Below, piece by piece: positions 35,118 to 63,203 of a DNA stretch of 64,000 nucleotides. The notes beneath the pieces were generated by a model. It was not told the origin of the DNA, ran no database searches, and saw nothing but the letters and a program-made list of their open reading frames with translations. Numbering within the stretch: position 1 is the stretch's first letter; every line of letters starts with the position of its first letter. The position numbers were made by a program, and so were the translations under genes. The stretch spans positions 1 through 64,000 of the forward strand of contig NZ_RBWV01000014.1 of the NCBI RefSeq assembly GCF_003634695.1. Direction: 5' to 3'. The DNA comes from Motilibacter peucedani (GTDB lineage Bacteria; Actinomycetota; Actinomycetes; Motilibacterales; Motilibacteraceae).

Positions 35118-35236
35118 GGGCGGTCCCCCCGAGCTCGGCGCACGCCGGGTGCACAGCGCGCTGCTCCGCAGTGTGGTTCTGGTGGGGCTCTGCGTCCAGC
35201 GCTCCTGCCCGAGCGGCCCTCCGCCGGACGCGGGGA

Positions 35237-36325
35237 TCAGACGGTGGCTGCGCGCGAGGTCGCGTCGATCGTCGCCGAGCCGACGACGCGGGTGCCGTCG
35301 TAGACGACGACCGCCTGGCCGGGGGCGACCCCGCGCACCGGCGTACGCAGCCGCACCGTCAGCGTGCCGTCCTCGCCGACGCCCGCGACTGCAGGGACCG
35401 GCTCGCCGTGCGCGCGGACCTGCGCGAGGCACTCGATCTCGCCGTCGGGGGCGGGGCCGGACCAGCGGGGGCGGGAGCCGCGTACCGCGTGCACGTCGAG
35501 CTCCTCTGCGGCCCCGACGACGACGCGGTTCGTGACGGGCGAGATGTCGAGGACGTAGCGAGGGCGCCCGTCGGGCGCGGGCCGGCCGATGCGCAGGCCG
35601 CGGCGCTGGCCGACCGTGAAGCCGAATGACCCGCCGTGGGTGCCGACCACCTCGCCGGCGGTGTCGACGATCTCACCGGGCGCGTCACCGAGGCGGCGGG
35701 CGAGGAAGCCGGCCGTGTCGCCGTCGGCGATGAAGCAGATGTCGTGGCTGTCGGGCTTGTCGGCGACGGCGAGCCCCCGGCGCTCGGCCTCGGCGCGCAC
35801 CTCCGACTTGAGCGAGCCGCCGAGGGGGAACATCGCGTGGGCCACCTGGCGCTCGTCGAGCACGCCGAGGACGTAGGACTGGTCCCTGCCCGGGTCGACC
35901 GCCCGGTGGAGCTCGCGACCCGCTGGGCCGTCGACGATCTGGGCGTAGTGACCGGTGCAGACCGCGTCGAACCCCAGGGCGAGCGCGCGGTCGAGCACGG
36001 CGGCGAACTTGATCTTCTCGTTGCAGCGCAGGCACGGGTTGGGGGTGCGGCCGGCTGCGTACTCCTGGACGAAGTCCTCGACCACGTCGGCGGCGAAGCG
36101 CTCGGCGAGGTCCCAGACGTAGAAGGGGATGCCGATGACGTCGGCGGCGCGGCGGGCGTCGCGCGCGTCCTCGACGGTGCAGCAGCCTCGGGCGCCGGCG
36201 CGGAACGACGCGGGCGAGGGCGAGAGCGCGAGGTGCACGCCGGTGACGTCGTGCCCTGCCTCGGCCGCCCGTGCTGCCGCGACTGCGGAGTCGACTCCGC
36301 CGGACATCGCGGCCAGGACGCGCAC
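35237..36325 (-). CDS. mnmA: tRNA-specific 2-thiouridylase
   Basis: Transfers sulfur to uridine 34 of tRNA for Lys, Glu and Gln. The GTG start at 36325 gives 362 residues beginning [17 protein letters not shown] with the PP-loop ATP motif. The catalytic Cys pair is in TPNPCLRCN (about 102) and [12 protein letters not shown] (about 200). The [10 protein letters not shown] segment and C-terminal beta barrel are typical. It begins one base after the cysteine desulfurase stop, which is the sulfur donor, as in mycobacteria (Rv3025c-Rv3024c). The Cys at 46-47 (RGCC) is a frequent extra in actinobacterial members. Confidence 0.96.
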
Positions 36326-37615: not shown

Positions 37616-38644
37616 TCAGACGGCGATGCTGCCGTTCGACGCGCTGCGCCCGCCCCGAGAGTGACCGTTGACCGTCTCGGCGGTCAGGTCGACGGTGGAG
37701 CGGCGCAGGTCGATCGTGCGGTCCGGCTCCGCTGCCGGCGTCGTGCGCGTCACGGCGTCGACCTTGCTGCGCTCCGAGACGTCCTCCAGGCGCATCAGCT
37801 GCTGCGAGAGGGCACGGACCCGGTCGCCGCGACGGAGGTCGCGCTTCTCGATGGCGATGGTGCGCAGGACCCGCAGCCCGTCGGAGACCGCGTGGAGGTT
37901 GCTGCTCCCGAACAGGCGCTCGGACTCGAAGGAGGCGACCTCGGCGATCCGCAGGCCCGAGTTGTGCACGCGGATGTTGATCAGCGTCTCGACCTCGAAG
38001 CCGTCGCCCCACTTGCGCTCGGTGACGTCGTCCTCGGCGGTCCCGGGATCCATGGCGAGCAACGGCAGCACCCGGCGCCAGAAGGCGTTGTAGCCGTAGC
38101 AGAGGTCGCTGTAGCTCGTGCGGTGCAAGGTGTTGGTCAGGCGGTTCAGGAAGCGGTTGCCGGCGGCGCGCACGGGCGTGATGTCGCTCGAGCCGCCTCC
38201 GGTGCCGAAGCGGCTGCCCTTGGCGTAGTCGGCACCGGCCACCAGTGCGTCGACGAAGAACGGGATCTCACCCGGGTCCATCGACCCGTCGGCGTCGATC
38301 ATGACGATGATCTCGCTCGTGGCGGCGTGGAAGCCGCACGCGAGGGCGTTGCCCTTGCCGCGCCGGTTCTGCGAGACGATGCGCACGTCGGGCCACAGCC
38401 CGCGCGCGACGGCGACGGTGTCGTCGACGGAGTGGCCGTCGACGAGGATGATCTCGGCGATGCCCTTCGGCATGTGCTTGGCCAGCCACGGGAGGTTGCG
38501 CGCCTCGTTCATGGCGGGCACGACGACGGTGACCGACGGACCGTCGGGCGCGAGGTCCCGGCGCGGTGCCGGCATGAGCACCTTGAGCTGGCTGGGCGAC
38601 GCGCCGTCGCGAGCGGCGGCAGTGCTTGATGACGTTGTTGACAT
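37616..38644 (-). CDS. Family 2 glycosyltransferase
   Basis: Predicted GT-A enzyme that transfers a sugar from a nucleotide or polyprenyl donor in glycan synthesis. The ATG at 38644 (after GGGGGAG) gives 342 residues. VVVPAMNEARNLPWL near 40, ILVDGHSVDDTV near 67 and the DIDADGS-like MIDADGSMDPGE (DXD, near 116) are the GT2 hallmarks. NRFLNRLTNTLHRTSYSD and CYGYNAFWR near 170 resemble dolichyl-phosphate mannose synthase-like members. The last 60 residues are hydrophilic and probably disordered. There is no membrane segment. It is the edge gene of the surface-glycan region. Confidence 0.9.
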   Translation of the reverse strand: MSTTSSSTAAARDGASPSQLKVLMPAPRRDLAPDGPSVTVVVPAMNEARNLPWLAKHMPKGIAEIILVDGHSVDDTVAVARGLWPDVRIVSQNRRGKGNALACGFHAATSEIIVMIDADGSMDPGEIPFFVDALVAGADYAKGSRFGTGGGSSDITPVRAAGNRFLNRLTNTLHRTSYSDLCYGYNAFWRRVLPLLAMDPGTAEDDVTERKWGDGFEVETLINIRVHNSGLRIAEVASFESERLFGSSNLHAVSDGLRVLRTIAIEKRDLRRGDRVRALSQQLMRLEDVSERSKVDAVTRTTPAAEPDRTIDLRRSTVDLTAETVNGHSRGGRSASNGSIAV

Positions 38645-39040
38645 GGCTCCCCCTGGAAGGCACTCGATGCTTCGGGACTCCCGGCGCCGGTGCCGAGCGA
38701 GGTCGTCGACGCACCCGTGCGTACCCGGCAGGCCTGCTGCTGCTCCGTCGTGGAGCGGCGGCCACCGGAAGGGCACCGACCTACGAGGTTCGGAGCCGGT
38801 CCAGCGGTGGATGGGAGGCACTGCGAGAAATCTTCTTCGACTGCACCGGGGCTGTCGATCCGCTGCTCCCCCGCGGCGGGTTCGACACGACCTCGCACCT
38901 CGATGCTAGGTGCACGAGTGCTGGAGCAACAGCCTTCCGGGAAAGTCTCACGAGCCGTGACGGAGCACTCGCACTCCGTCGCAGAGATGTCCCCCGGACG
39001 GGCCCACGACGTGATGGCACGACATCGGCCACGCGCCGGA
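38645..39040. other. 396-base intergenic region between GT2 and the GH5-like gene
   Basis: It holds the upstream region of the GT2 gene on the minus strand. No convincing reading frame, tRNA or classical terminator was seen. A weak promoter is possible: a TAGCAT -10-like box at about 38911-38916, with TTGCTC 15 bases upstream. The segment around 38860-38900 recalls part of a c-di-AMP riboswitch, but the match does not hold (see rejected items). Confidence 0.35.
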
Positions 39041-40876
39041 TCAGGCAGGAAGCACCTGCCACGAGGTGATCTTCCACTCTGTCGGTGCGGCCGCTGCGCC
39101 GCCGTTCAGCGAGAACGCCGCCCCACCAGGCGCCGCGACCGCTGCAGCCGTGTCGTCGTCGCCCGACCACGTCGGCTGCGACGGACGCACCGGGCCGGTC
39201 CACAGCCGGAGCTCCAGAGCGGTGCCGCGCACGGCGAACTCGATCGACAACGGTGAACCCGCAGCGAATCCGTCGATGTGCAGGCTGGGCGAGAGCAGTG
39301 CCGGCGCCGCACCGCGGCGGCCCACCGACGCGTACCCGCCGCCGTCGAGCTCGACCCGGTAGCCGGCCTCGTCGGCCACGCTCGTGGCCGACCCCGCGCT
39401 GCGCAGCACGAGCGAGAGGTACGACTCACCCGTCGTCACGGGCACGACGGTCGCCCGCACGCGGGTGTCGGCCGACGCGGCCGCGACGAGCCGCGCCGAG
39501 GCCTTGTCGGCCCAGCCGCCCGTCGCGCCGGTACGCAGCACCAGTCCGCTGGTGGTGGTCTGCACCGAGCCGCCCGGCCCTGCCCAGGTCGACCACTGCG
39601 GTGCCACCGCTGCGGGCGCGGGAGCAGCGGCCTGCTGCCAGCTGCGCGTGAGGGCTGCGGCCGTGCTGCGGATCTGCTGCTGCGCCGAGGTCATCTGGGC
39701 GGTGGTGCCGGGCACCCACATCGCGTAGCCGTCACCGTGCTGCTCCGGCTTGCCCGCGATGCGGGGCAGCAGCGTCCAGAGGATGCCGCCCGAGACCGCT
39801 GGGGTGGCGGCGATCTTGCTGAGCCAGGAGCTGAGGTCGCCCGTCCAGTCGAACTCGCCGACGACGTACGCCTTCCCGTGCCCGGCCGCCACTGCAGCGT
39901 CCTGCTGCATCCACGCAGGGTCACGCGGGTAGAAGTGGCCGCCCACGATGTCGACCGCAGGGGCGTCGACCGCCGCGTCGGCCACGTGCTTGCCGTTCGC
40001 GGCGGAGCCGTCCGCGACGAGCTGGCGCGGGGCCAGCGACTTGATGTAAGCGGCGGTCGACGCCGTCCAGGAGTTCGGTGCGTCCCACAGCTCGTTGCCG
40101 GTCTCCCAGACCGCGATCGTCGGCTCGCTGGACATGGCGGTGCCGGTGTAGCGGTTGACGTGGCCCAGCACGTGAGCGACGTAGGCGCGGAAGTCGGAGA
40201 TCACCGCAGGGTCGGAGTAGAAGTGCGCCTCCGCGTCGCGCTGCACCGCGTCGTCAGCCGCGGTCGCGCCAGGGTCGGTGCTGCCGGCGTAGCCGCGCCA
40301 CGCGGTGAACGTCGACTTCCCGCCGTGGTAGTACCGCCACTCGTCGGTGAGGGGCACCATGAGCCGCAGGCCGCGCGCCCGCGCAGCGGCCACCGCGTAG
40401 TCGACGGGCTCGAAGGCGGCGTCGTTCCACCGACCCAGCGACGGCTCGACGCTGCGCGGGCTGCCTACGGAGATGCCGAGGGTGTGCGCCCGGACGACGG
40501 TGGCGCCGAGGGAGACCGCCGCATCGAGCGCCGAGTCGATCGCGGCGTGCGTCGGGTAGGTCGGCCGGCCCTGGGCGTCACGGACGTTGTCGTCGAGGCC
40601 GAGGTAGTACTCGTTGGCGCCGACGAAGCGGAACGGCTTGCCCTGCAGCAGCAGCGTGCTCCCCGAACGGGTCACGAAGCTGTCCGCGGTGGGCAGCAGC
40701 GCGCTCGCGGCTCGTGGCACGGACACTGCGGCGGCGCGTACGGCGGCCGGCACCCTGCGGTGCGCGGGGGTCGAGGCGGCCGCCGGACCGGCGAGCGTGA
40801 GCACCGCCGCGGCCGCGCTCACCGCTGCCACGACGGCCGTGCTCCATGAGGTGCGGTGGACGGGACGTGCACTCAC
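39041..40876 (-). CDS. Secreted GH5-like glycoside hydrolase with C-terminal beta domain
   Basis: Predicted extracellular beta-glycanase of the GH5 mannanase/cellulase type. A GTG start with GGAGGT six bases upstream gives 611 residues. Domains: signal peptide (1-35, ending PAAAS), a TIM barrel (about 55-415) opening with FRFVGANEYYLG, with acid/base Glu in WETGNELWDAP near 245 and nucleophile Glu in YVVGEFDWTG near 345, then a short Pro/Ala linker. A beta-jelly-roll-like C-terminal domain (about 430-611) has YRVELDGGGYASVG and LELRLWTG, resembling concanavalin-type or 3-keto-disaccharide modules. Substrate is unknown. It is divergent from the flippase operon and may trim or release its glycan. 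Confidence 0.85.
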   Translation of the reverse strand: MSARPVHRTSWSTAVVAAVSAAAAVLTLAGPAAASTPAHRRVPAAVRAAAVSVPRAASALLPTADSFVTRSGSTLLLQGKPFRFVGANEYYLGLDDNVRDAQGRPTYPTHAAIDSALDAAVSLGATVVRAHTLGISVGSPRSVEPSLGRWNDAAFEPVDYAVAAARARGLRLMVPLTDEWRYYHGGKSTFTAWRGYAGSTDPGATAADDAVQRDAEAHFYSDPAVISDFRAYVAHVLGHVNRYTGTAMSSEPTIAVWETGNELWDAPNSWTASTAAYIKSLAPRQLVADGSAANGKHVADAAVDAPAVDIVGGHFYPRDPAWMQQDAAVAAGHGKAYVVGEFDWTGDLSSWLSKIAATPAVSGGILWTLLPRIAGKPEQHGDGYAMWVPGTTAQMTSAQQQIRSTAAALTRSWQQAAAPAPAAVAPQWSTWAGPGGSVQTTTSGLVLRTGATGGWADKASARLVAAASADTRVRATVVPVTTGESYLSLVLRSAGSATSVADEAGYRVELDGGGYASVGRRGAAPALLSPSLHIDGFAAGSPLSIEFAVRGTALELRLWTGPVRPSQPTWSGDDDTAAAVAAPGGAAFSLNGGAAAAPTEWKITSWQVLPA

Positions 40877-41184
40877 AGCAGGACCTCCGGACACGGGCGG
40901 CTCGGGGATGAGCGCTCCCGCTCGATCGGCCGGCTCGTCGCCACGCTTGAGCGCGGCGGCCACGACCACCCGTCCGCGCGTCCCCCGGCTCCGAACACAC
41001 CCGAGACGGTGAACTGCGGGACTCGACGCCCTCTTCGGGGGACGGGACCGCCGCGCTGTTCGTAGACTGGACGCGGGGGAGCCGACGATCGCGCTCCCAG
41101 GTGCACTGACGACGACGTGCGGAGCGCCACCGGCAAAGGCAACTGCGTCGATGGAATGCACGAGCGAACTCGGACGGGGGCACT
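40877..41184. other. 308-base divergent control region
   Basis: It separates the secreted glycosidase (leftward) from the flippase-GT operon (rightward), so both promoters must lie here or nearby. A TAGACT -10-like box is at 41063-41068 for the rightward operon, without a convincing -35. No structured RNA or repeat was seen. Confidence 0.4.
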
Positions 41185-44100
41185 GTGACAGCGAGCGTCG
41201 ACGAGCGCCGCCCCGCAGCAGCACCGCGCAGCGTGTCCTCCGGGCTGCGCCGCATCGCGGGCATCAGCGCCTCGCTGGTCTCGACGCAGGCGGTCACCGC
41301 GCTGCTCGGGCTGCTCTTCTGGGCGGTGGCCGCGCGGCAGTCGTCGCGCCCGCAGGTCGGCACCGCCCTCGCGGCCGTCTCGCTCATGATGCTGATCGGC
41401 TCGGTCGGCACCCTCGGCCTGGGCACCCTGCTGATCGACCGCCTCCCCCGCACCGAGCAGGGCGAGCGCCGGGTGCTCGTGCGCAACTCGCTGCTGCTGG
41501 CCGGGCTCGCGGGCGCCTTCCTCACGGCGGTGTTCGCAGCGGTCGCCGAAGGCGTGCTGCACGTCGACAACCTGCGCTCCATGGCCGGCAGCCCCGCTGC
41601 CGCAGCAGGTCTGGTGCTCGGCATCGGGCTCACGGCCCTGGTGATGGTCCTCGACCAGGCGGTGCTCAGCATCGGCACCGGCGCGCTCCAGCTCGAGCGC
41701 AACGTCCTCGCCAGCTCGGTGAAGATCGTCGCACTGCTCGCCCTCGGCGCGGCGGGCGCCACGAGCGGGATGGCGATCTTCCTCGCCTGGACGATCGGGA
41801 CCGCCACCTCGCTGCCGCTGGTCGCATGGCGTACGCGTGGGGGCCGCGCGCTCGACACGTCCGGCCGTCTGGTCGACCTCGGGAGGATGCGCGGGCTCGG
41901 CCGGCACGCCGCCAGCCACCACGCGCTCAACCTCGCCCTGCAGGCGCCGCTGCAGCTGTTGCCGCTGATCGTCACCGTGGCGCTCTCGACCGCCGCCAAC
42001 AGCGCGTTCAACACCGCGCTCCTGGTCACGGGGTTCGTCTTCGCGGTGCCCTACGCCATCGCCATCGGGGTCTTCGCCTCGGCGCGCGGTGAGGAACGTG
42101 CGGCCATCGCCCACATGCGCACGACCATCCCGCTCGCCGTGGCGGCCAGCGTCGCGGCCTACGTCGTGCTGTTCCCCTTCGCCGGCCTGGTCCTGCGGCT
42201 GTTCGGCAGCGGCTACGCCGACGACGGCGCCACCACGCTGCGCGTCCTGGTGCTGGCCGGCATCCCCTTCGTCGTCAAGGACCACTTCATCGCCCTGCGC
42301 CGGCTGCAGGGACGCACCAGCCAGGCCGTGACCGTGATCGCCTGCTTCACCGTCGTCGAGCTGGCCGCCGCCCTCGTCGGTGCGCGCACGCACGGCATCG
42401 ACGGGCTCAGCGTGGCGTGGGTCAGCGTGCTGGCTGCCGAGGCCCTGGTGCTGCTGCCGCCCCTCCTGCTCGCCGTGCGCCACGCAGCCCGCGACACGGA
42501 GCCCGTGACGCCCCCCGGGGGGCAGGTCACCGACGAGCCCGCGCCGAACGACGAGCCCGCACCGACCAGCCTCTCGGCAGGGTCCGTCCCGCCCTCCCGC
42601 GACCTCACCGGTCCGACCCTCGCGGCGATGGCCCTCGGACTGCTGCTCGTCGCCGTGGCAGGGGCGCAGTCCCGGCCCGACGCCGCCGGCCAGCTGCAGG
42701 CCGTCACCTACGTCCTCGGGCTCGCGGTCGTGCTCGTGCCGGCCGCCTTCCGCATCCTGCTCTCCGGGACGTCGGACCGGGAGCGCATCGCGCTGGCCGT
42801 AGCGGTGCCGATCGCCCTGCAGCTCAGCCGGCCGTTGATCAACCCGCAGCACTTCGCCTACCACGACGAGTTCCTGCACGCGAACGTCCTGCGCCAGATC
42901 GGTTCCTCGCACCACTTGTTCTCGCTCAACTCGCTGCTGCCCGTCTCGGCCTACTACCCCGGGCTCGAGATCGTCACGGACGCCGTGCGGCAGACGACGG
43001 GGCTGCCGGTCTACGCCACCTCCGTGGTCGTGCTGCTGCTGGTGCGGGTGGTCTTCGCCCTGACCCTCGTCGCGCTGGTGCGGGCCGTCTCCGGCTCGAC
43101 CCGCGTCGCGTGCGTGGCCAGCGTCGTCTACGTCTCGAACCCCCAGCTGCTGTTCTTCAACTCGCAGTTCTCCTACCAGACGCTCGCCCTCCCCCTCGCG
43201 GTGCTGACGCTGTACGCGTTCGTCAGCCGCGTGCGGGGTCGCCGCAGCTCGCTGCTGGGCGCCGCGGCGCTGGCGTCGGCGACCGCGGCCACGCACCACC
43301 TGACAGCGGTGCTCCTGGTGGCCTCCCTGCTCGGCTGGCTCGTGCTCGAGCTGCTGCTGCGCGCCAAGGGCGAACGCCGTGACGCGCTCGGCCTCGCCGT
43401 GCTGGGGGCCGTCGGAGCGGCTGCCGTCGTCTTGGTGGCCGCCAACCCCGGCAACCCGGTGGTCAGCTACCTCTGGTCGATCGTCACCAGCTCGAGCAAC
43501 GACGTGGGCGCCCTCACGCGCGGGCAGCAGACCAAGAGCGTCTTCAAGGACTCCGCAGGCACCAGCAGCTATCTCTGGGAGAAGGCGCTGATCCTGGCCG
43601 CTCTCGCGCTCGTCACCGTGGGCCTGGTCCCCGCGCTGCTGCGCTCGCGCGAATGGCTGCGGCGGCGGGTGCCGCTGGCTGTCCTGCTCAGCCTCGTGGC
43701 CTGCCTGTTCCCGATCATCCCCGCGGGCCACCTGACGCGGGCCACTGCGGAGGTGGGCGACCGCTCGTCGGGGTTCGTCTTCTTCGGCGTGGCCTTCGTG
43801 TTCGGCTGGTGGCTCTGGCGCCGGACCCTGCGCGCGAGGACGGCCGCGGTCCTCGCCGCAGCGCTCGGGATCGTCATGCTCGGCAACGTCGTGCTCGGCG
43901 CGGGCCCCGTCTCCGAGCAGCTGCCCGGCGCCTATCAGATCTCTGCCGACGCGCGCAGCGTCGACAGCGACAACCTGGCTGCGGCCCAGTGGCTCCACGA
44001 CAACGTCAAGGGCGACACCCGCGTCTACGCCGACCGGGTGTCCGGCCTGCTCGCCGCGGGCGTCGGCGGCATGTTCACGGTGCGCCACATCTCCACCGAC

Positions 44101-44379
44101 ATCGACGCCTCGAGGCTGATCCTCGACCCTGAGTTCACCGCGGCGGACGTCGCGCTCATCAAGCAGGCGCGCATCTCCTACGTCGTCGTGGACCAGCGCG
44201 ACTCGAACAGCCTGCCCCACGAGGACGTCTACATCGAGTCCGGTGAGTTCGGCTCGCCGCGCACCGCGCCGGTCCCAGCGGCCGCACTGCACAAGTTCGA
44301 CACCGTCCGCGGCGTCACGAAGGTCTACGACAACGGCTCGATCGCCATCTACGACGTCCGGAGGCTGCGCGGTGCGTAG
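41185..44379 (+). CDS. Fusion of Wzx-like flippase and GT-C-like membrane glycosyltransferase
   Basis: A 1064-residue polytopic protein with two parts. Residues 1-430 look like an O-antigen/teichoic-type flippase of the MOP superfamily: about 12-14 helices, Arg-rich cytosolic loops and two pseudo-repeats. A Pro/Glu-rich linker follows (about 435-475). Residues 475-950 look like a GT-C polytopic glycosyltransferase, with an early extracellular HDE motif (YHDEFLHANVLRQIG, near 558) and about 10-12 helices. An extracytoplasmic C-terminal domain (about 930-1064) contains AQWLHDNVKGDTRVYAD and SYVVVDQRDSN. The fusion would join lipid-linked sugar export to transfer at the outer face. The start is GTG. 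It overlaps the next gene by eight bases. Confidence 0.75.
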   Translation: MTASVDERRPAAAPRSVSSGLRRIAGISASLVSTQAVTALLGLLFWAVAARQSSRPQVGTALAAVSLMMLIGSVGTLGLGTLLIDRLPRTEQGERRVLVRNSLLLAGLAGAFLTAVFAAVAEGVLHVDNLRSMAGSPAAAAGLVLGIGLTALVMVLDQAVLSIGTGALQLERNVLASSVKIVALLALGAAGATSGMAIFLAWTIGTATSLPLVAWRTRGGRALDTSGRLVDLGRMRGLGRHAASHHALNLALQAPLQLLPLIVTVALSTAANSAFNTALLVTGFVFAVPYAIAIGVFASARGEERAAIAHMRTTIPLAVAASVAAYVVLFPFAGLVLRLFGSGYADDGATTLRVLVLAGIPFVVKDHFIALRRLQGRTSQAVTVIACFTVVELAAALVGARTHGIDGLSVAWVSVLAAEALVLLPPLLLAVRHAARDTEPVTPPGGQVTDEPAPNDEPAPTSLSAGSVPPSRDLTGPTLAAMALGLLLVAVAGAQSRPDAAGQLQAVTYVLGLAVVLVPAAFRILLSGTSDRERIALAVAVPIALQLSRPLINPQHFAYHDEFLHANVLRQIGSSHHLFSLNSLLPVSAYYPGLEIVTDAVRQTTGLPVYATSVVVLLLVRVVFALTLVALVRAVSGSTRVACVASVVYVSNPQLLFFNSQFSYQTLALPLAVLTLYAFVSRVRGRRSSLLGAAALASATAATHHLTAVLLVASLLGWLVLELLLRAKGERRDALGLAVLGAVGAAAVVLVAANPGNPVVSYLWSIVTSSSNDVGALTRGQQTKSVFKDSAGTSSYLWEKALILAALALVTVGLVPALLRSREWLRRRVPLAVLLSLVACLFPIIPAGHLTRATAEVGDRSSGFVFFGVAFVFGWWLWRRTLRARTAAVLAAALGIVMLGNVVLGAGPVSEQLPGAYQISADARSVDSDNLAAAQWLHDNVKGDTRVYADRVSGLLAAGVGGMFTVRHISTDIDASRLILDPEFTAADVALIKQARISYVVVDQRDSNSLPHEDVYIESGEFGSPRTAPVPAAALHKFDTVRGVTKVYDNGSIAIYDVRRLRGA

Positions 44380-45076
44380 GGAGATCACCTGGCGGATGGG
44401 CGTGGTGCTCGACGCCGTCGTGCTCGCCTCGCTCGGAGTCCCTGCGTGGCTGAGCACCCCTGCCGTGGTCCTCGCGGCCGTGGTCGTGGCCGAGCGGGTC
44501 GCGCGGCACCGGCGGCGCGGGCGCCTCGACGCCACCATCGCCGCGATCGCCGGGCCCGTCGTGTGCCTCATCGGTCTCGGCTTCGTGCTGGACGTGGTGC
44601 CTGGTGGCATCACCCGGACGTCGTGGGCGCTCGGTGCCGGGGTGCTCGCGCTCGCTGCGCTGGCGCTGTGCGCGCGCCGTCCGGTCCCGCCGCCCGTGTG
44701 GGCCGGCACGTCGTTCGGCTCCCCCACTGCAGTGGTATGGGGTGGCGTCACCGTCGCTCTCGTGGCGACCGCCCTCGGCATCTCGGTGGAGTCGGCCCGG
44801 CGGCTGGAGGAACCGCCGGTGCAGCTGTCGCTCAAGACCTCCGGCGGCGTCACCCGCGCGTTGGTGAGCGCCGGCGGGGATGCCGGACCCTTCGTGCTGA
44901 GAGCGGAGTCGGGCTCCCGGGCGACCGTGCTGAGCGGGAGCTTCTCCCTCGAGGCCGGCCAGACCATGAGCTTCCCCGTCCTCGTGCAGGGCGGAGCACG
45001 CACCGTCGTGACGCTCAGCAATCCCTCGCAGGACCAGCCGGTCCGCTCAGTCGTGCTAGACCGGAGGAACCCGTGA
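44372..45076 (+). CDS. Small polytopic membrane protein of the glycan operon
   Basis: Unknown function, 234 residues from the GTG at 44372, which overlaps the fusion gene end by eight bases. About five hydrophobic helices fill residues 8-145, with an Arg-rich loop RVARHRRRGRLD. The last 80 residues form an exported beta-rich domain (VQLSLKTSGGVTRALVSAGGDAG and TVVTLSNPSQDQPV). The end of the gene overlaps the next glycosyltransferase by four bases. A role as partner of the flippase-GT protein is plausible from position only. Confidence 0.7.
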   Translation: MRREITWRMGVVLDAVVLASLGVPAWLSTPAVVLAAVVVAERVARHRRRGRLDATIAAIAGPVVCLIGLGFVLDVVPGGITRTSWALGAGVLALAALALCARRPVPPPVWAGTSFGSPTAVVWGGVTVALVATALGISVESARRLEEPPVQLSLKTSGGVTRALVSAGGDAGPFVLRAESGSRATVLSGSFSLEAGQTMSFPVLVQGGARTVVTLSNPSQDQPVRSVVLDRRNP

Positions 45077-46239
45077 CGCTCGAGACCGACGGCGAAGCAC
45101 GGCCCGCCAGCCGTCGCCCGCTGCGCGTCCTGCAGGTCGTGCAGCGCTTCTTCCCGGAGCTCGGGGGCACCGAGACCCACGTGGCCGAGGTGACCCGCCG
45201 GCTCGTCGCCGTCGACGACATCGACGTGACGGTCCTCGCCACCGACCGGAGCGGCACGCTCCCGCGCCGCGACGAGGTGGACGGCGTACGCGTCGTCCGG
45301 CGCCGCTCCTGGCCGCGCGACGCCGACCTCTACCTCTCCCCGGGCGTGTGGTCGGTCATCACCGGCGGCGACTGGGACGTCGTCCACTTCCAGGGCGTGC
45401 ACACCTTCGTACCCATCATCGGCATGGCAGCTGCGCGGCGGGCGGGACTTCCCTACGTGCTGACCTTCCACAGCGGCGGCCACTCGGCGCCGTCGCGCTC
45501 GAGGGTGCGCGCTCTGCAGTGGCGGGCCATCACGCCGCTGCTCCGGGGCGCCGACCGGCTCATCGCCGTGAGCCGGTTCGAGCGCTCCGCCTTCTCCGCG
45601 TCGACAGGCATCGAGCCGGGCCGGTTCACCGTGATCCCCAACGGCGGTGCGCTCCCGCCGGTGCCCGAGGGCTTGCGCCCGGTCCCTGGCCGCATCGTGT
45701 CGAGCGGCCGCCTGGAGAAGTACAAGGGCCATCACCGCGTCATCGAGGCCCTGCCGCTCGTGCAGCGCGACGTGCCAGGAGCCCACCTTGTGGTGCTCGG
45801 CGGCGGCGCCTACGAGCCGGAGCTCCGGGCGCTCGCCGACCGGCTCGGCGTGGCGGGATCGGTCACGATCAAGCACCTGCCTCCGGCGGACCGCGCCGCC
45901 ATGGCGACCGAGCTCGCGAGCGCGGCCGTCATGGCCGCGATGTCGAGCTACGAGGCGCACCCGGTCGCGATCATGGAGGCTGTGGCCATCGGACTGCCCG
46001 TCGTAGGGGCCGACGTCGCCGGCACCGGCGACCTCGTCGAGGACGGGCTCGTCACAGGGGTCCCGCACGACGCTGCTCCCGCGCAGGTCGCTGCAGCCCT
46101 GGTCGAGGAGCTGCGCGCCTCGGCGACCCTCGACGGCCCGCGACCCCTGCCCGAGGCCGACCTGCCTACCTGGGACGCGTGCGCCGCCGCTGTGGCGGAC
46201 GTCTACCGCGACATCGGCCGGTCCAGGGGTCTGCTGTGA
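45073..46239 (+). CDS. Family 4 glycosyltransferase (first of the operon)
   Basis: GT-B retaining glycosyltransferase of 388 residues, predicted cytosolic. The N-terminal domain has QVVQRFFPELGGTETHV (about 20-36), typical of GT4 acceptor domains. The C-terminal donor domain has SSGRLEKYKGHHRVIEAL near 217 and the nucleotide-sugar EX7E region as SSYEAHPVAIMEA near 295. The GTG start has GGAGGA upstream and overlaps the previous stop (GTGA). The acceptor and donor sugars cannot be told from sequence. Confidence 0.9.
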   Translation: MTLETDGEARPASRRPLRVLQVVQRFFPELGGTETHVAEVTRRLVAVDDIDVTVLATDRSGTLPRRDEVDGVRVVRRRSWPRDADLYLSPGVWSVITGGDWDVVHFQGVHTFVPIIGMAAARRAGLPYVLTFHSGGHSAPSRSRVRALQWRAITPLLRGADRLIAVSRFERSAFSASTGIEPGRFTVIPNGGALPPVPEGLRPVPGRIVSSGRLEKYKGHHRVIEALPLVQRDVPGAHLVVLGGGAYEPELRALADRLGVAGSVTIKHLPPADRAAMATELASAAVMAAMSSYEAHPVAIMEAVAIGLPVVGADVAGTGDLVEDGLVTGVPHDAAPAQVAAALVEELRASATLDGPRPLPEADLPTWDACAAAVADVYRDIGRSRGLL

Positions 46240-47372
46240 CCCCAGCAGCGCCGCTGCGCGTCGTGCACGTCATCACCACCCTCACGACCGGGGGCGCCGA
46301 GCGCCAGCTCGAGTCGATCGTCGGGCGGACCCGGCACCAGACCGCGACCATCTGCCTCTACGGGTCAGGGACCGTCGGGGACGCCATGGTCGCCTCCGGC
46401 CAGCGCGTGGAGGTGCTCGGCATGGACGGCTGGCGCAAGGCGGTCGCCGTCTTCCGCCTCGCCGCCAGGATCCGGCGCTACCGGCCCGACGTCGTGCACG
46501 TCCACCTGCTGGCCGCGCAGCTCTGGGGCATCCCCGCGGCTCGTCTCGCCGGCGTGCCGGTGATCGTCTCGAGCGAGCACTCGCTCATGGCGACGACCAT
46601 CGAGGGCCGCCCGCTGAGCGCCTGGCTGCGTCGGCTCTACCTGGCGCTCGAGCGCCTCACGACGCGGACCGTCGCGGTGTCGGCGACCACTCGCGAGCGC
46701 CTGGTGGCATGGGGAGTCCGACCGGCGCGCATCGAGGTCGTCGACAACGGCATCGAGTTCGAGGCGCTGCGGTTCTCCTCGACCGCCCGCGCGAGCGTGC
46801 GCGCCGAGCTCGGGCTCGACGAGCAGGCCGTCGTGGTGGGCGCCGTGGGCCGCCTCGACGCCGTCAAGCGGATGGACCGGCTGGTGCGCGCCCTGGCGCC
46901 ACGTCTGCGCTCCGGCGACGCCTGGCTGGCCGTCGCGGGTGACGGGCCGCTGCGTCCTGAGCTCGAGGCGTTGGCGACCGAGCTCGGGGTCGCCGACCGG
47001 GTGCTGCTGCTGGGCGCCCGGCCGGACGTCCCCGCCGTTCTCAGCGCGCTGGACCTGCTGGTCAGCCCGTCGCGCGACGAGACCTTCGGCATGGCTGTCG
47101 TCGAGGCGCTGGGCTCCGGTCTGCCAGTCGTCTACGCGCAGTGCCCGGCGATCGACGAGGCGCAGGTCCAGTGCTCCTGGGCGGTCGAGCTGCCTCCGGG
47201 CGCCGACGGCGACGACGAACTGCTCGCCATCAGCGGCGCCGTCGACGACCTCCTCGCCCACGGCCGCACGCGCCACCCCGCTCCCGGCCGACTGGTCGAG
47301 CGCTACGGCATCGCCTCGACGGTGGAGCGCCTCGACTCGCTCTACGACGAGCTCCGGGCGGCGGCGGGATGA
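46236..47372 (+). CDS. Family 4 glycosyltransferase (second of the operon)
   Basis: GT-B glycosyltransferase, 378 residues, whose GTG start overlaps the previous stop (GTGA). VHVITTLTTGGAERQL near 10 is the GT4 N-terminal Gly-rich loop. VGRLDAVKRMDRLVRAL near 205 and SPSRDETFGMAVVEAL near 282 (EX7E Glu pair) mark the donor site. It belongs to the same chain of overlapping GT genes. Unlike its neighbours it lacks an extra N-terminal extension. Confidence 0.9.
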   Translation: MTPAAPLRVVHVITTLTTGGAERQLESIVGRTRHQTATICLYGSGTVGDAMVASGQRVEVLGMDGWRKAVAVFRLAARIRRYRPDVVHVHLLAAQLWGIPAARLAGVPVIVSSEHSLMATTIEGRPLSAWLRRLYLALERLTTRTVAVSATTRERLVAWGVRPARIEVVDNGIEFEALRFSSTARASVRAELGLDEQAVVVGAVGRLDAVKRMDRLVRALAPRLRSGDAWLAVAGDGPLRPELEALATELGVADRVLLLGARPDVPAVLSALDLLVSPSRDETFGMAVVEALGSGLPVVYAQCPAIDEAQVQCSWAVELPPGADGDDELLAISGAVDDLLAHGRTRHPAPGRLVERYGIASTVERLDSLYDELRAAAG

Positions 47373-48487
47373 CGGGCACCGGCCCTGCTCGCGCCTCGAT
47401 GGAGCTGGTCTCGCGCGGCGACCCGCTCTCGCCGTTCCTGTTCAGGGCTGTGGCGCGGCATTTCGACGTGGTCGCTGAGCTCGACCCCGACCTGCGCCGC
47501 TGGCAGCGCTACCTCGTCGCCGCGACCTCCTTCCGGCCGTCGCGGGCAGCGTGGGCGGAGCGCTTCTTCAAGAGCCTCCTGGCCCGTCGTCTGCGGACCC
47601 GCAACGCCCGGACGCTGCACGACCGGCACGGCGCGGAGGCTGACGTCACGCTCCAGGTGCACGCGCTGTTCGCCGTCGAGTGGGCGCGGGCGGCGGTCTA
47701 CGTGGACTGCACCCACCGCCAGGTGGTCGAGCAGTGGCCGGCGTGGAATCCGTTGCGCGGCAGGGCTCTCGCGGAGTGGCATGCAGAGGAGCGGGCGACG
47801 TACGCGCGCGCGCAGCACCTGTTCGCCTTCTACCAGGCGACGGCCGACTCGCTCGTCGACGACTACGGCGTCGACCCGGCCAGGGTCTCGGTCGTAGGCG
47901 CCGGCGCCAACGTCGCGGAGCTGCCGCAGGTCCGGACCTCCGCCCCTGTCGGCCCGCCGGAGATCCTCTTCGTCGGCAACGACTTCGAGCGCAAGGGCGG
48001 GCAGGTGCTGCTCGAGGCGTTCGCCCTCGTGCGGCGCGCCCACCCCGACGCGCGTCTGCGCCTGGTCGGTGCCGGCCCGCGCGGCGACCTCGGTCCTGGG
48101 ATCGAGGCCACCGGTCGCGTGCGCGACCGGGCGGAGCTCGCCCGGATCTACGCAGGCGCAACGGTCTTCTGCCTGCCTTCGCTGTTCGACCCCTTCCCCC
48201 TCGTGGTGCTGGAGGCGATGGCCCACACGTTGCCCGTCGTGGCGACCACCGTCTGCGGCATCCCCGACATGGTGGTCGAGGGCGAGACCGGGCTGCTGGT
48301 CAAGCCGCACGACGCCGCAGGGCTCGCCGACGCCCTCTGCGAGCTGCTCCGTGATCCCGTGCGCGCGCAGCAGCTGGGCGCCGCGGGGCGTTCCCGCGTC
48401 GAGTCTCGCTTCCAGTGGGACCACGTGGTCGACCGCATGCTCCCGGCGTTGACGCGGGAGCGGCTCGCCGGGGAGCTGAGCTGCTGA
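47369..48487 (+). CDS. Family 4 glycosyltransferase (third of the operon)
   Basis: GT-B glycosyltransferase, 372 residues, with an ATG overlapping the previous stop (ATGA). The N-terminal domain is divergent and carries FAVEWARAAVYVDCTHRQVVEQWP, like acceptor domains that bind large substrates. The donor domain is conventional: FVGNDFERKGGQVLLEAF near 196 and LPSLFDPFPLVVLEAM near 270 with the EX7E pair. Its end abuts the GH5-like lipoprotein gene. Confidence 0.9.
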   Translation: MTGTGPARASMELVSRGDPLSPFLFRAVARHFDVVAELDPDLRRWQRYLVAATSFRPSRAAWAERFFKSLLARRLRTRNARTLHDRHGAEADVTLQVHALFAVEWARAAVYVDCTHRQVVEQWPAWNPLRGRALAEWHAEERATYARAQHLFAFYQATADSLVDDYGVDPARVSVVGAGANVAELPQVRTSAPVGPPEILFVGNDFERKGGQVLLEAFALVRRAHPDARLRLVGAGPRGDLGPGIEATGRVRDRAELARIYAGATVFCLPSLFDPFPLVVLEAMAHTLPVVATTVCGIPDMVVEGETGLLVKPHDAAGLADALCELLRDPVRAQQLGAAGRSRVESRFQWDHVVDRMLPALTRERLAGELSC

Positions 48488-49677
48488 CCGCGCTCGCGCC
48501 GGTGCCGGAGCGGTACGCAGCGGCGCGGAGGACGCGTCGGCTCCGCCTGGTCGTCACCTGCCTGCTGGTCGCCCTGCTCGGCACGTCGCTCGCTGCCTGC
48601 TCCGGTCGCCACTCGGGGTGGGTCAGCCGCCAGGGCGACGGCTTCCGCCTCGACGGCGCACCCTTCCGCTTCGTGGGGTTCAACCTCTACGACGCCGCGG
48701 CGACCGACTCGTACTCCTGCCACCCGCAGACGGCGCTCGACGCCAGCCAGCTCGCCTCGGCCTTCACCCGGATCCACGACAGCGGCGCCACGGTGGTGCG
48801 CTTCTGGGCCTACCAGACCTACACCCGCGGCGGCACCTACTGGGCCGGCGTCGACAAGGTGGTGGAGGCAGCGCGCGACGCGGGCCTGCACCTGCTGCCC
48901 GTGCTGGAGGACGGCCCGGGTGACTGCACGACCGGCCCGGCTCACACGCCGAAGTCGAGCTACGAGGGCGACACGTGGTACACCGAGGGCTACAAGCACC
49001 CCTACGGCACGGCGTCGCTGTCGTTCCGCGACTACGCCGCGCGCGTCGTGACGCACTACCGTGACGAGCCGGTGATCCTCGGGTGGAGCATGGTCAACGA
49101 GGCCGACACCAGCGCCAGGGACGCCGACGGACGCTCCGCCCTGGTCGACTTCGCTCAGGACGTGGGAGCCGTCGTCAAGTCCCACGACAGCAGGCACCTG
49201 CTGACGGTGGGGACGCAGAGCAACGGCGCCCCTGGGGCCAGCGGCACCGACTTCAGCGACGTCTACCAGACCGACACCGTCGACTTCGCCGAGGTGCACG
49301 ACTGGGGCCGCTGGGGCGACGACACGGTGCCGATGCCCGGGAGCTCCGACGGGACCACGCCGCCGTCGCCAGAGGACGGCCAGTGCACACGCACGGACTC
49401 GAAGATCGGGTGCTCGTTCGCCCGGGCGCAGGTCCTCGGCAAGCCGCTCGTCGTGGGCGAGGCCGGGATCTCGGCCGCCACCGACGCCGAGCGTCAGCGA
49501 CGGGCCGACCTGCTGCTGGCCAAGATGCGGGCGGCGTTCGCGGCAGGGGCCGACGGCTACCTCGTGTGGCAGCTCAACACCGAGCCGACGGACTCCTACG
49601 ACGTGCTGCTCGGCAGCGACGACCCGCTCTTCGGAGTGCTCGAGGCCGTCGGCGCCGCCGAGTCGGGCCGCGACTAG
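48484..49677 (+). CDS. GH5-like glycoside hydrolase lipoprotein
   Basis: Predicted membrane-anchored beta-glycanase. The hydrophobic N terminus ends in a lipobox (GTSLAACSG), so the mature protein would be lipid-attached outside. The barrel opens with FRFVGFNLYDAAATDSYSC and has acid/base Glu in SMVNEADTS near 205 and nucleophile Glu in VVGEAGIS near 325. I place the start at a CTG at 48484, overlapping the previous stop as CTGA and preceded by GGGGAG, giving 397 residues. The alternative is GTG 48502 (391 residues), which has no ribosome site. It ends the rightward chain and its stop overlaps the convergent gene by four bases. Confidence 0.82.
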   Translation: MTALAPVPERYAAARRTRRLRLVVTCLLVALLGTSLAACSGRHSGWVSRQGDGFRLDGAPFRFVGFNLYDAAATDSYSCHPQTALDASQLASAFTRIHDSGATVVRFWAYQTYTRGGTYWAGVDKVVEAARDAGLHLLPVLEDGPGDCTTGPAHTPKSSYEGDTWYTEGYKHPYGTASLSFRDYAARVVTHYRDEPVILGWSMVNEADTSARDADGRSALVDFAQDVGAVVKSHDSRHLLTVGTQSNGAPGASGTDFSDVYQTDTVDFAEVHDWGRWGDDTVPMPGSSDGTTPPSPEDGQCTRTDSKIGCSFARAQVLGKPLVVGEAGISAATDAERQRRADLLLAKMRAAFAAGADGYLVWQLNTEPTDSYDVLLGSDDPLFGVLEAVGAAESGRD

Positions 49678-50876
49678 GACCCGTTCCAGGTGCGCGCGCC
49701 GAGGCGCCGGAGCAGGTCCGCGTAGGCCTCGAGCGTCGTCGACCAGCTGTGCGGGTCCTCGAAGCGCTGCCCGCGCATGGCGTACGCCCGCTGCATCGCC
49801 TCGGAGAGCGCCGCCGGGTCCTCCGGCGGTGCGAAGACGGTGCCTGCGTAGTCGCCAGCGGCCTCGACCAGGCCCCCGACCGCAGTGACGACGACAGGGA
49901 GCCCGGCGCTCATCGCGATGTGCAGCGGCCCCGAGGACGAGGAGCGCTTGTAGGGCAGGACCACCGCGTCCGCCGCGCCGAAGTAGGCCTGCACCTCCGG
50001 ATCGGTGACGTAGCGGTCGACCACCGAGATGCTCTCGCGCGACGGGCTGGCGGCGACAGCCTCGAAGGGGGCGTCCCAGCCCTCCCACTTCTCGCCGACG
50101 AGCACGAGGCGGGAACCCTCCCGCACCGGCGCAGGGAGCAGGTCCCACGCCGCGACGAGGTCCTCGACGCCCTTGTAGGGGCGCACGATGCCGAAGTAGA
50201 GGAACACGAAACGGCCGTCGTCGTCGACGGGAGCCGCGTCGGGGTGCTCTGGTCCGGTGGCCTGCACCGCGCCGGCGTGGTGGTCGTAGGGCCCGTGCGG
50301 GGCGACGACCACGTTGCCGGGAGGCAGGTCGTAGGCGGCCTGGAGCAGCTCGAGGTCGTGCTTGTTGTGGACCACGTGCCCGTCCGCGCGCCGGAGCAGC
50401 TGCGCCACGGCCGCCCGGACGTAGCGCACGACCCCGGGGATGCGCGCCTCACCGGTGTCCTGCACCTCGTGCCACTCGATCACGACCGTGGCGCCCTGCC
50501 GGCGCGCGAGGGTCGCGATCGCGAGGTAGGAGTGCAGCACCGCACCGGTCCACCACTGCAGCACGACGACGTCGGGCCGCTGCTCGCGGAGGAACCGGCG
50601 GGCGGCCAGCATGCTGCTGCCCCAGTACCAGTCGACGCCGTCGAGGACCGGCACGCCGGGGGCGTACTCGAGGGCGTTGACCTGGACGCCGACCCGGGCG
50701 CGACCGGGGTAGAGCGCACGCGGCACCAGCCGCCGCATGAGCAGGGCGCTCGTCGGCGTCACCTCGCTGAAGGCGTTGGACAGCCGGCAGGTGTAGTAGC
50801 TGATGCCCGAGGTGAAGCGCCAGCCGGAGCCTACGACCAGCACTCGGGGGCCGCGGGGCTCGCTCGGGGTGCTCAC
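49674..50876 (-). CDS. Family 4 glycosyltransferase, leftward
   Basis: GT-B glycosyltransferase of 400 residues from the GTG at 50876 (the open frame reaches 51137 but that extension is low-complexity). VVGSGWRFTSGISYYTCRLS near 15 is the GT4 N-terminal loop. FLYFGIVRPYKGVEDLVAAW near 220 and VVLPYKRSSSSGPLHIAMSAG near 303 form the donor site. The second motif is SSSSGPLHIAMS, so the usual first Glu of EX7E is missing, as in some GT4 subgroups. It converges with the GH5 lipoprotein gene. Confidence 0.88.
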   Translation of the reverse strand: MSTPSEPRGPRVLVVGSGWRFTSGISYYTCRLSNAFSEVTPTSALLMRRLVPRALYPGRARVGVQVNALEYAPGVPVLDGVDWYWGSSMLAARRFLREQRPDVVVLQWWTGAVLHSYLAIATLARRQGATVVIEWHEVQDTGEARIPGVVRYVRAAVAQLLRRADGHVVHNKHDLELLQAAYDLPPGNVVVAPHGPYDHHAGAVQATGPEHPDAAPVDDDGRFVFLYFGIVRPYKGVEDLVAAWDLLPAPVREGSRLVLVGEKWEGWDAPFEAVAASPSRESISVVDRYVTDPEVQAYFGAADAVVLPYKRSSSSGPLHIAMSAGLPVVVTAVGGLVEAAGDYAGTVFAPPEDPAALSEAMQRAYAMRGQRFEDPHSWSTTLEAYADLLRRLGARTWNGS

Positions 50877-50943
50877 GCCCCGAAGGATAGCGAGCGGCGC
50901 TCGGGCCGAACGGGCCGCGAGCACCCTGCGGAGGTCCAGGCCG

Positions 50944-51075
50944 TCAGCGGTAGGCGGGGCAGCTGCAGAGCGAGCAGTCCGACCCGCGGCGGTGGTGCAG
51001 GTGGGCCTGCTTGTCATGGCGGCACCGCCGGCAGGGGCCGGTGCGCAGTCGGAGGGCGAGCCACGAGAGGACCAC
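50944..51075 (-). CDS. Mini zinc-ribbon-like protein, 43 residues
   Basis: A short frame starting at GTG 51075 and ending CSLCSCPAYR. It contains CRRCRHDKQAHLHHRRGSDCSLCSCP, i.e. CxxC, a His cluster and CxxCxC, a pattern I recognise from small unannotated actinobacterial proteins with a conserved ending of the type SDCxLCxCPxxR. Zinc binding is likely from Cys/His spacing. No ribosome site is visible, so a leaderless message would be needed. It lies divergently from the GT-C-like gene and just upstream of the GT4 gene. Function unknown. Confidence 0.55.
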   Translation of the reverse strand: MVLSWLALRLRTGPCRRCRHDKQAHLHHRRGSDCSLCSCPAYR

Positions 51076-51208
51076 GTGATCATTCTGGCCCTCCGCGCGG
51101 CGGGTGCCACCGCGGGGTGCTCGGCACAGCGCGTCACGAGCGGTGAGCCGAGCGAGTTTGTTGCCGCGACGATCGATCCGCACGTCCCCTCAGGTACGAA
51201 GCACCGAC

Positions 51209-53314
51209 GTGGCCCCCTCCGACCGCTCGCCAGAGCCGCCCGGCACGACGACCTCGCGGCCTCCCGGCTCGCTCCTGCAGCGCGACCCGCGGTCGGGAGG
51301 CCTGAGCCTGGACGGGGCGCTGCCGACGGACGACCGGCTCGAGGTGGTGCACGTACCCGCCGACCGGGCCCGGTGGACCGCGAGGCTGGCGCGCGCGTAC
51401 GACGTGCTGTCCTGGCCGGTGCGTGCGGTGGGGCTCGTGGCCGTCGTCGCGGGCCTGCGCCTGTGGGACAGCCCGTCCGCCGGCGGGCCCTCGGGCCGGG
51501 TGCTCGCCCACGCGTGGGTCACGCAGCACGCCGCCGCCCTCGGCTCCCACGACCACCGGAGCGCGGCACCCCCGCTGGGCTGGCTCGCACTGGGCGCCTG
51601 GACCGGGAGCGGTGCAGGGGTGGGCGCTGCGCCGGGCGTCGTCGCAACCGCGCTGGAGCTGGGCCTGGTCGCCCACACGGTGTCCGCCGCCCTCGTGTGG
51701 GTCCTGGCCCGCCGTGTGGGTCTGACCCGGCCCGCCGCCGTCGCAGCCGTCCTCGCCTACGGCCTCTCGCCCGCCGTGCTCCCCGGGGCTCGGGAGGTCT
51801 CGCTGGTCGTCCTCGCCACTCCGTGGGCGCTGCTGGCCGTGGTCCTCTCGACCGCGCGGACCCGCCGCGCGGTCGCCCTGCCGGCCGCTGCTCTCGCGCT
51901 CGCCGTGGCCACGCTCACCGCACCTGCCGCGGCGGCCGTGCTGCCGCTGGTGGCCGCTCTTGCGTGGCGCGGCCGGGCCGCCTGGCGCGCGTACGCGGTG
52001 GCGGGCGCGCTGCTCCTCGCCGTCGGCGCGGGGTGGCTCGTCGTCGCCGACCGCTCCGGCCTCTGGCCGGCCCTCGACCGGCCGGGCGGCACCGGACCGG
52101 CCCTCGACGGGCTCCTGCACCGGCTCTCCGGTGCCTGGTCGCCCGGCGGTGCAGGCTCCCTCGTCTCGACTGACCCGCTGCTGGTCCTCGGCGGCCTGGT
52201 CGCCGCCGTGCTCCTCGTCGTCCTCGGCGCCCCGCGCACCCGTCTGCTCGGTGCCGGCACGGCCGTCGCCGCGCTGGCCGCGTGGCTCTGGGCGCCGGAG
52301 GGCACCGGCCTGCTAGCGGTGTTCCTGCCGCTCGGTGCGGTCAGCGCCGCCGCCGCAGGTGCGCTGGTCGTCGACCGCGCACGCGCGGTCGGGCCGCGGG
52401 GCACCGCGGGCCTGACCGCCGTCGGAGTGATCGCGCTCGCCGGAGCGGCCCTGGCCTGGGTGCCTGACGACTACCGCACGGTCACCGCCGGGGACGCGGC
52501 GCCGCAGGTGTCGGCGCGCGACTGGCTCGCCGTCAACGTGCCTGCCACCGACACGCTCCTCTCCGACGACGCCACCGTGCTCGACCTCCGTGCCGACGGC
52601 CGGACCGCCGCGCGCACCAGCTCGGCGTCGGACGTCCCCGCTCTGGCTCAGCCGGACGCCGACGGCACCCTGCTCTCCACGCCGCCGGCGCGCTGGCAGG
52701 ACCTCGACGTCGTGGTCTCCACGCGCGCGCTGCGCTCCCTGGCGAGCAGCACCGCGTACGTCTCCGACTCGCTGACCTCCTCGACGGTCCTCGCGTCGTT
52801 CGGCTCCGGTGCCGACCGGGTCGAGGTGCGCCGAGTCAACGCGCTGGGGGCAGGCTCCGCCGGCGCGCAGGCGCGGGAGGACACCACCGCGTCCGCGGGC
52901 GTGGGCGCCCAGCTGGCCCGCAACCCCCGGCTGAGCCTGTCGTCGCCGGCCCGCGCGCTGCTCGTCGGCGGGCACGTCGACGCACGACTGGTGACGCTGC
53001 TGGCCCTGGCCCTCCAGGACCAGCCGGTCACCGTCGTAGGCTTCCCGGCGGCACCCGGCGAGTCGGCCGAGCGCCCGCGGCGGGCGGCCGAGGTCGTCTC
53101 GCTCGACGGGGCGCCAGTGTCGGTCGACTCCCCCGGGGTGCTCGCCCTCCGCTCGCTCGTCGCCGCCCAGCGAGCGCCCTACAGCGCGGCCACCGTCTCC
53201 GTGGGCAACGGCGCCCTCGTCGTGTCCTACCCCGCCTCGCCCGCGTCGGGCCTCCTCCCGGCGCCCGGGCAGGAGCCCACCCCCGAGACCTCGCTCCTCC
53301 CGAAGGGACCCTGA
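51209..53314 (+). CDS. Polytopic membrane glycosyltransferase-like protein (GT-C type)
   Basis: Predicted membrane glycosyltransferase or related enzyme, 701 residues from the GTG at 51209 (the longer frame overlaps the mini zinc gene). A hydrophilic cytosolic start (about 55 residues) is followed by a first membrane helix, an extracellular loop with AHAWVTQHAAALGSHDHRSAAPPLGWLALG that matches the first GT-C loop (acid residues near 115), and about 9-10 helices. From about 425 onward a large exported domain begins, with SARDWLAVNVPATDTLLSDDATV. The catalytic assignment is inference. DUF4397 protein and sortase follow in the same direction. Confidence 0.7.
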   Translation: MAPSDRSPEPPGTTTSRPPGSLLQRDPRSGGLSLDGALPTDDRLEVVHVPADRARWTARLARAYDVLSWPVRAVGLVAVVAGLRLWDSPSAGGPSGRVLAHAWVTQHAAALGSHDHRSAAPPLGWLALGAWTGSGAGVGAAPGVVATALELGLVAHTVSAALVWVLARRVGLTRPAAVAAVLAYGLSPAVLPGAREVSLVVLATPWALLAVVLSTARTRRAVALPAAALALAVATLTAPAAAAVLPLVAALAWRGRAAWRAYAVAGALLLAVGAGWLVVADRSGLWPALDRPGGTGPALDGLLHRLSGAWSPGGAGSLVSTDPLLVLGGLVAAVLLVVLGAPRTRLLGAGTAVAALAAWLWAPEGTGLLAVFLPLGAVSAAAAGALVVDRARAVGPRGTAGLTAVGVIALAGAALAWVPDDYRTVTAGDAAPQVSARDWLAVNVPATDTLLSDDATVLDLRADGRTAARTSSASDVPALAQPDADGTLLSTPPARWQDLDVVVSTRALRSLASSTAYVSDSLTSSTVLASFGSGADRVEVRRVNALGAGSAGAQAREDTTASAGVGAQLARNPRLSLSSPARALLVGGHVDARLVTLLALALQDQPVTVVGFPAAPGESAERPRRAAEVVSLDGAPVSVDSPGVLALRSLVAAQRAPYSAATVSVGNGALVVSYPASPASGLLPAPGQEPTPETSLLPKGP

Positions 53315-56191: not shown

Positions 56192-58240
<2,049 letters not shown>

Positions 58241-58274
58241 GTCCTCCCTCTCCCGCACCTCGCTCCCCCGGAAA

Positions 58275-58343
58275 CCGCGATGATCATGAGGAAGTCAGGG
58301 GACACGCCGGCGTGTCCTGCTGAGAACCTCATGATCATCGCGG
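58275..58343. repeat. Large intergenic palindrome, copy 2, between glgP and glgX
   Basis: Arms at 58275-58308 and 58309-58343 pair perfectly over the outer 17 bases (CCGCGATGATCATGAGG), open at a three-base internal loop, pair again through TCAG, and close with GGACACGCC after a one-base bulge. The same outer stem, loop position and inner stem occur in copy 1 at 22681-22747, but the arm that carries TTC is on the opposite strand. It lies 17 bases after the glgP stop and 34 bases before the glgX start. Confidence 0.88.
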
Positions 58344-58360
58344 GGATGACCAGGGCGGGG

Positions 58361-61232: not shown

Positions 61233-63203
<1,971 letters not shown>

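Follow-up and report, generated by a model that had tools for sequence, protein, structure and literature searches.

A Wzx-Type Flippase Joined to a GT-C-Type Glycosyltransferase in a Single Reading Frame of Motilibacter peucedani

The fusion gene and its surroundings

A stretch of 64,000 nucleotides from Motilibacter peucedani (hereafter the window) was analyzed. On its forward strand, a frame of 1064 codons runs from GTG to TAG and is free of internal stops in the open reading frame listing. A preliminary description had read this frame as a Wzx-like flippase fused to a GT-C-like glycosyltransferase. The features of the gene and its neighbors are listed below.

37616..38821, − strand: GT2 glycosyltransferase gene (W27), similar to polyprenyl/dolichyl-phosphate sugar synthases (AglJ, DPM synthase)
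39041..41224, − strand: exported GH5-like protein (W28), divergent from the fusion gene; the true start lies inside the frame
41185..44379, + strand: fusion gene (Wzx-type flippase, linker, GT-C-type glycosyltransferase), 1064 aa, GTG start
41185..42483, + strand: flippase half, residues 1–433, with 12 predicted transmembrane helices and both ends cytosolic
42484..42612, + strand: linker, residues 434–476, Pro/Asp/Glu-rich, predicted cytosolic, low pLDDT
42505..42508, + strand: GTGA, in which a stop of the +1 frame shares bases with an in-frame GTG; the probable remnant of a former gene boundary
42613..44376, + strand: GT-C-type half, residues 477–1064, with 13 predicted helices and an outer C-terminal domain
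42865..42879, + strand: DExxH (D561, E562, H565) of the GT-C half
43903..44376, + strand: C-terminal alpha/beta domain, residues 907–1064, predicted outside (model and topology)
44372..45076, + strand: small membrane protein with a C-terminal beta-type domain (X1); overlaps the fusion gene, GGAGG upstream
45073..46239, + strand: GT4 glycosyltransferase (X2)
46236..47372, + strand: GT4 glycosyltransferase (X3)
47369..48487, + strand: GT4 glycosyltransferase (W32)
48415..49677, + strand: GH5 (cellulase-family) protein (W33), Pfam Cellulase E 1.6e-11, conserved in fused loci; start position uncertain
49674..51137, − strand: GT4 glycosyltransferase (W34); in most relatives with the fusion, it adjoins the GT2 gene

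The G+C content of the window is 74%, and chance long frames are frequent (e.g., a spurious 1731-aa frame lies opposite the fusion gene), so the length of the fusion frame by itself is weak proof. The G+C content at codon position 3 was 0.88–1.0 in all 40-codon blocks of the gene and 0.93 in the linker block, indicating that the coding character is unbroken at the junction. A chance frame in G+C-rich DNA was ruled out by the homology to two distinct families on either side of the linker and by eight further genomes with the fusion in frame. A missed stop between the two parts, which the preliminary description had named as a refutation, is likewise no explanation, given these genomes. The flippase–GT-C fusion is real and forms one continuous protein-coding frame, for which an NCBIfam search returned no matching family.

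Homologues of the next gene, X1, follow the GT-C sequence in fused, Motilibacter, and Frankia loci and in an Acidimicrobiia locus, and Pfam gave no convincing family for this protein. A triple fusion that included X1 was not supported, since the X1 matches lie in a different frame in loci L038, L039, and L041. The usual order in fused relatives is GT2, GT4, (GT4), fusion, X1, GT4, GT4, (GT4), GH5, with local variation. A homologue of the GT2 gene was present in 31 of 38 loci and one of the GT4 gene X2 in 35 of 38; therefore, the core of the locus appears to comprise GT2, GT4, flippase, and GT-C. The best NCBIfam model for the GT2 protein was AglJ (E 9e-31), at 107 bits and under its cut-off of 325.

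The Wzx/Wzy pathway usually has a PF02397 initiator. No such initiating phosphoglycosyltransferase was found on this contig, and the three in the genome all lie on other contigs. Wzy_C was absent from the window; a below-cut-off match lies approximately 20 kb past the window end, and the sole match over the cut-off in the genome is on another contig. A pathway through polyprenyl phosphate (a monophosphate) therefore suits the cluster better than one of the Wzx/Wzy kind. The GH5 proteins suggest an extracellular polysaccharide. The gene at 51104-53314 encodes a membrane protein of 736 aa that matches DUF2079 weakly and may also be of the GT-C type; in loci L027 and L028 of Motilibacter relatives, its homologues lie next to the unfused flippase gene.

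The two halves and their predicted topology

Structure prediction and topology analysis, which the preliminary description had proposed as a check, were applied to both halves. The AlphaFold model of the fusion protein (pLDDT 91.4, pTM 0.79), hydropathy, and the positive-inside rule placed 12 helices in residues 1–433, 13 in residues 477–906, and a folded domain in residues 907–1064. Together with the frame listing, these results agree with the description of a single 1064-residue frame with two polytopic halves. The pTM is moderately high for a two-part chain, which hints that the halves may have a preferred mutual arrangement. The linker is rich in Pro, Glu, and Asp, much as had been stated, and the HDE motif reported early in the second half was located at residues 560–562. 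In the predicted topology, the positive-inside loops are consistent with an outside position of both HDE and the C terminus, and the exported C-terminal domain of the earlier claim, a soluble domain, stands as a prediction.

For the first half, hhalign matched the family profile to a Wzx profile with 99.5% probability (E 8e-23, 438 columns), versus 84% for MurJ and 0.4% for the PMT control, an unrelated GT-C set. Of 51 family rows scanned with Pfam, 17 contained Polysacc_synt, but the window protein had no Pfam match in its own flippase half. As hhalign targets, single E. coli proteins (ArnT, WzxE, WzxC, MurJ, and MdtK) gave matches that were too weak, with WzxC at the top for the flippase half, and when either half was searched by sequence against solved structures, only meaningless weak matches came up. 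The predicted 12 helices with cytosolic ends (model, hydropathy, and positive-inside loops) fit the 12–14 helices of PST/Wzx proteins. In the alignment, the charged residues D157, R172, K/R180, and R373 were invariant or nearly so and common to fused and separate copies. The flippase halves of the fused proteins were 50–60% identical to one another. These comparisons support the earlier reading of the first half as Wzx-like, and residues 1–433 are best described as a putative 12-helix flippase of the Wzx/PST type, with a far better match to Wzx than to MurJ. The half resembles the Wzx flippases (PST family, MOP superfamily, Pfam Polysacc_synt) in both helix number and profile match, and to our knowledge no Wzx protein fused to a glycosyltransferase has been known.

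The second half of the window protein matched DUF6541, which we take to be a GT-C family, with 40 bits in Pfam (cut-off 29, E 2e-10). Among its relatives, PMT_2 scored above the Pfam cut-off in a Frankia relative, and a GT-C_AftD domain fell slightly below the cut-off in a profile scan of another. The comparison using hhalign gave a moderate match to the PMT_2 set (50–67% probability over approximately 270–290 columns) versus 0.1% for Wzx. D561, E562, and H565 were identical in 32 of 32 aligned rows, as were H704, H705, Q661, Y664, and R924, and D1003 and R1005 were identical in 33 of 33. The DExxH supplies the acidic motif of a GT-C protein in the first large outer loop of the predicted topology, after the helix ending at 552, and is probably the catalytic motif. 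The domain matches in the protein and its relatives and the invariant motif predicted outside support the assignment of residues 477–1064 as a GT-C-type transferase, and the GT-C-like second half of the preliminary description is thus upheld by sequence. GT-C-type proteins of the DUF6541/PMT_2/AftD kind resemble this half in Pfam matches, in the DE motif of the first large outer loop, and in the outer C-terminal domain, but they have no attached flippase. A literature search for DUF6541 gave no paper on the family, and the fusion supplies a putative role for it.

Recurrence of the fusion and the gene boundary at the junction

A scan of genome contigs with the GT-C half returned 31 loci. Both halves were present in 27 of them, fused in 8 and separate in 19; no flippase gene was found in the remaining 4, one of which is ended by a contig edge. 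The same fusion occurs in the isolates Kineosporia mesophila, Kineococcus rubinsiae, and Amnibacterium kyonggiense and in uncultured Pseudokineococcus, Lapillicoccus, Humibacillus, Lacisediminihabitans, and one MAG labelled Acidobacteria. In all eight, the flippase precedes the GT-C part in one stop-free frame, as in the window, and the proteins are 51–55% identical to the window protein over their full length, with linkers of 36–120 residues. The carriers form a lineage of soil-type actinobacteria. The fusion in the MAG labelled Acidobacteria (L039) is nearest to that of Amnibacterium (Microbacteriaceae), and this contig is probably misassigned. No relative of the fusion was found in the viral contigs searched, and the plasmids searched held no fusion, with only a distant GT-C half on Rhizobium plasmids.

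Unfused homologues of the two halves in one operon, which the earlier description had named as a further check, were found in Frankia, Nocardioides, and others. In sister lineages, each half has its own gene. The flippase and GT-C genes of Frankia share a four-base overlap (GTGA). In Motilibacter relatives, the halves lie approximately 4–5 kb apart on opposite strands and are divergent. The order is reversed (GT-C and then flippase) in loci L050-L063 (Nocardioides and others), where several GT-C proteins carry an additional C-terminal hydrophobic sequence.

In the tree of each half, all nine fused proteins grouped as one clade (SH-aLRT 99) that excluded the Frankia and Motilibacter sequences. 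The simplest reading of these trees is that the fusion had a single origin. The source genome belongs to the Motilibacter family, whose other members with both genes have them separate, as does the nearest species compared (G001); therefore, the copy in the window was either acquired or retained.

The junction probably preserves a former gene boundary. In two Frankia loci, the end of the flippase gene and the start of the GT-C gene overlap in the same GTGA, which is preceded by GGAGG. In the window, the flippase sequence is in the GT-C frame and reads past the old stop at 42505-42508. The downstream genes of the window overlap in a similar way, with GTGA or ATGA at 45073, 46236, and 47369. A small frame-changing indel ahead of a GTGA-type overlap could suffice to create such a fusion, which would show a route from overlapping genes to a fused protein.

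Proposed function and its alternatives

The window protein is probably bifunctional, with a flippase half that turns over a polyprenyl-phosphate-linked sugar and a GT-C half that transfers it to a surface glycan. The neighboring GT2 would load the sugar onto polyprenyl phosphate inside, and the GT4s would perhaps lengthen the lipid-linked sugar. The Wzx/PST-type half would then turn it to the outer leaflet, and the GT-C half would use the flipped lipid outside, with D561 and E562 as catalytic acids. The C-terminal domain would lie near the acceptor, where a surface polysaccharide would be built or decorated, and the cytosolic linker would hold the two halves together. By uniting flipping and use, the fusion might channel the substrate directly, as the preliminary description had supposed. 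We infer the topology, the substrate, the direction of transfer, the acceptor, any benefit of proximity, and the use of the flipped lipid as the GT-C donor.

Comparable schemes are known from separate proteins. In Haloferax volcanii, AglD, AglR, and AglS are a dolichol-phosphate mannose synthase, a presumed flippase, and a transferase, respectively (PMC3871713). As proposed for the window, the lipid monophosphate is loaded inside, crosses the membrane, and is used outside, and the GT2 of the window resembles the archaeal AglJ family; however, the Haloferax system is archaeal, consists of three proteins, and places its glycan on the S-layer protein, and AglR is only proposed as a flippase or its helper (PMC3871713). 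In the SccN/SccM system of Streptococcus mutans, a GT-A synthase makes the Und-P-sugar, a flippase moves it, and a GT-C protein uses it outside (PMC11754754). This multi-component scheme is like that proposed here, but its proteins are separate, its flippase is still to be named, and it has no Wzx-type partner (PMC11754754). MprF likewise unites lipid flipping and an enzyme acting on that lipid within one polypeptide, but its domains are unrelated and its enzyme acts inside before flipping, whereas the enzyme of the window protein would act outside after flipping (PMC8131360).

Both parts of the protein are of known kinds, and the fused architecture is undescribed as far as the searched papers show. 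No description of a flippase–GT-C fusion was found in a literature search from which most subscription journals were absent, so this is weak evidence of novelty. The flippase serving the GT-C protein is unknown or guessed in many bacterial glycosylation pathways, and a natural fusion points out the partner of a GT-C family with no assay needed. The fusion would also allow flipping and transfer to be measured together on a single protein.

A dedicated flip-and-transfer machine, in which the Wzx-type half hands a polyprenyl-phosphate monosaccharide directly to the GT-C half, is possible, if rather unlikely. If it were true, Wzx-type proteins would be the flippases for polyprenyl-phosphate sugars that are yet to be named in several bacterial pathways.

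Some observations weigh against the bifunctional reading as a whole. Pfam gave no match for the flippase half of the window protein, and the PMT_2 match of the GT-C half is moderate. Unfused relatives do not always have the two genes side by side, as the distance between the Motilibacter genes shows, and tethering is thus not essential. Furthermore, the conserved GT4 may make the lipid-linked glycan longer than one sugar.

The main rival to the bifunctional reading is that the two halves handle different lipids of one pathway. The flippase half would export an acceptor oligosaccharide built by the GT4s on a lipid, and the GT-C half would take another donor (a polyprenyl-phosphate monosaccharide moved by another protein) or act as a polymerase or en bloc transferase, as in Wzx plus Wzy. 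The four GT4 genes, the lack of Wzy_C in the cluster, and the conservation of GT4 as widely as GT2 speak for two pathways in one chain. However, the PF02397 initiator usual for Wzx/Wzy is missing from the contig, and the GT-C half is closer to PMT_2/AftD than to Wzy. We consider this alternative unlikely.

It is quite improbable that the frame yields two working proteins, through internal initiation at the GTG at 42505 or through cleavage of the linker. This GTG lies within the ancestral GTGA boundary with GGAG upstream, and free Motilibacter GT-C proteins have a similar Pro-rich N-terminal tail; however, only three bases separate GGAG from GTG, start codons are wholly absent from the linker of L041, and the linkers of L037 and L039 contain one each. 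Still less credible is an assembly or sequencing error in the source genome, that is, a false frameshift joining two overlapping genes. Because the GTGA boundary is retained, one base would split the genes in the window alone, and the genes are separate in the nearest species compared. Against this, the error would need to lie in the approximately 22 bases before GTGA, and the window protein falls inside the fused-protein clade in both trees. Several of the eight other fusions have no alternative stop in the linker; in L041, L037, and L039, neither of the other forward frames is interrupted. As a general explanation, an assembly artefact is ruled out by the fusions in relatives, the trees, and the linker frames, and for the source genome it is very improbable. 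Least plausible of all is that the flippase half has lost transport and acts as no more than a membrane anchor or a scaffold for the GT-C half, for although separate genes suffice in relatives, the (nearly) invariant charged residues in fused and separate copies and the identity among the fused flippase halves speak against it.

Two further parts of the window were recorded. A 1059-codon frame without a Pfam match at 32253-35432 on the reverse strand is either spurious or an unrecognized protein, and adjacent alpha-glucan genes at 56192-63203 encode a CBM48/alpha-amylase-family protein, a phosphorylase with DUF3417, and GlgE.
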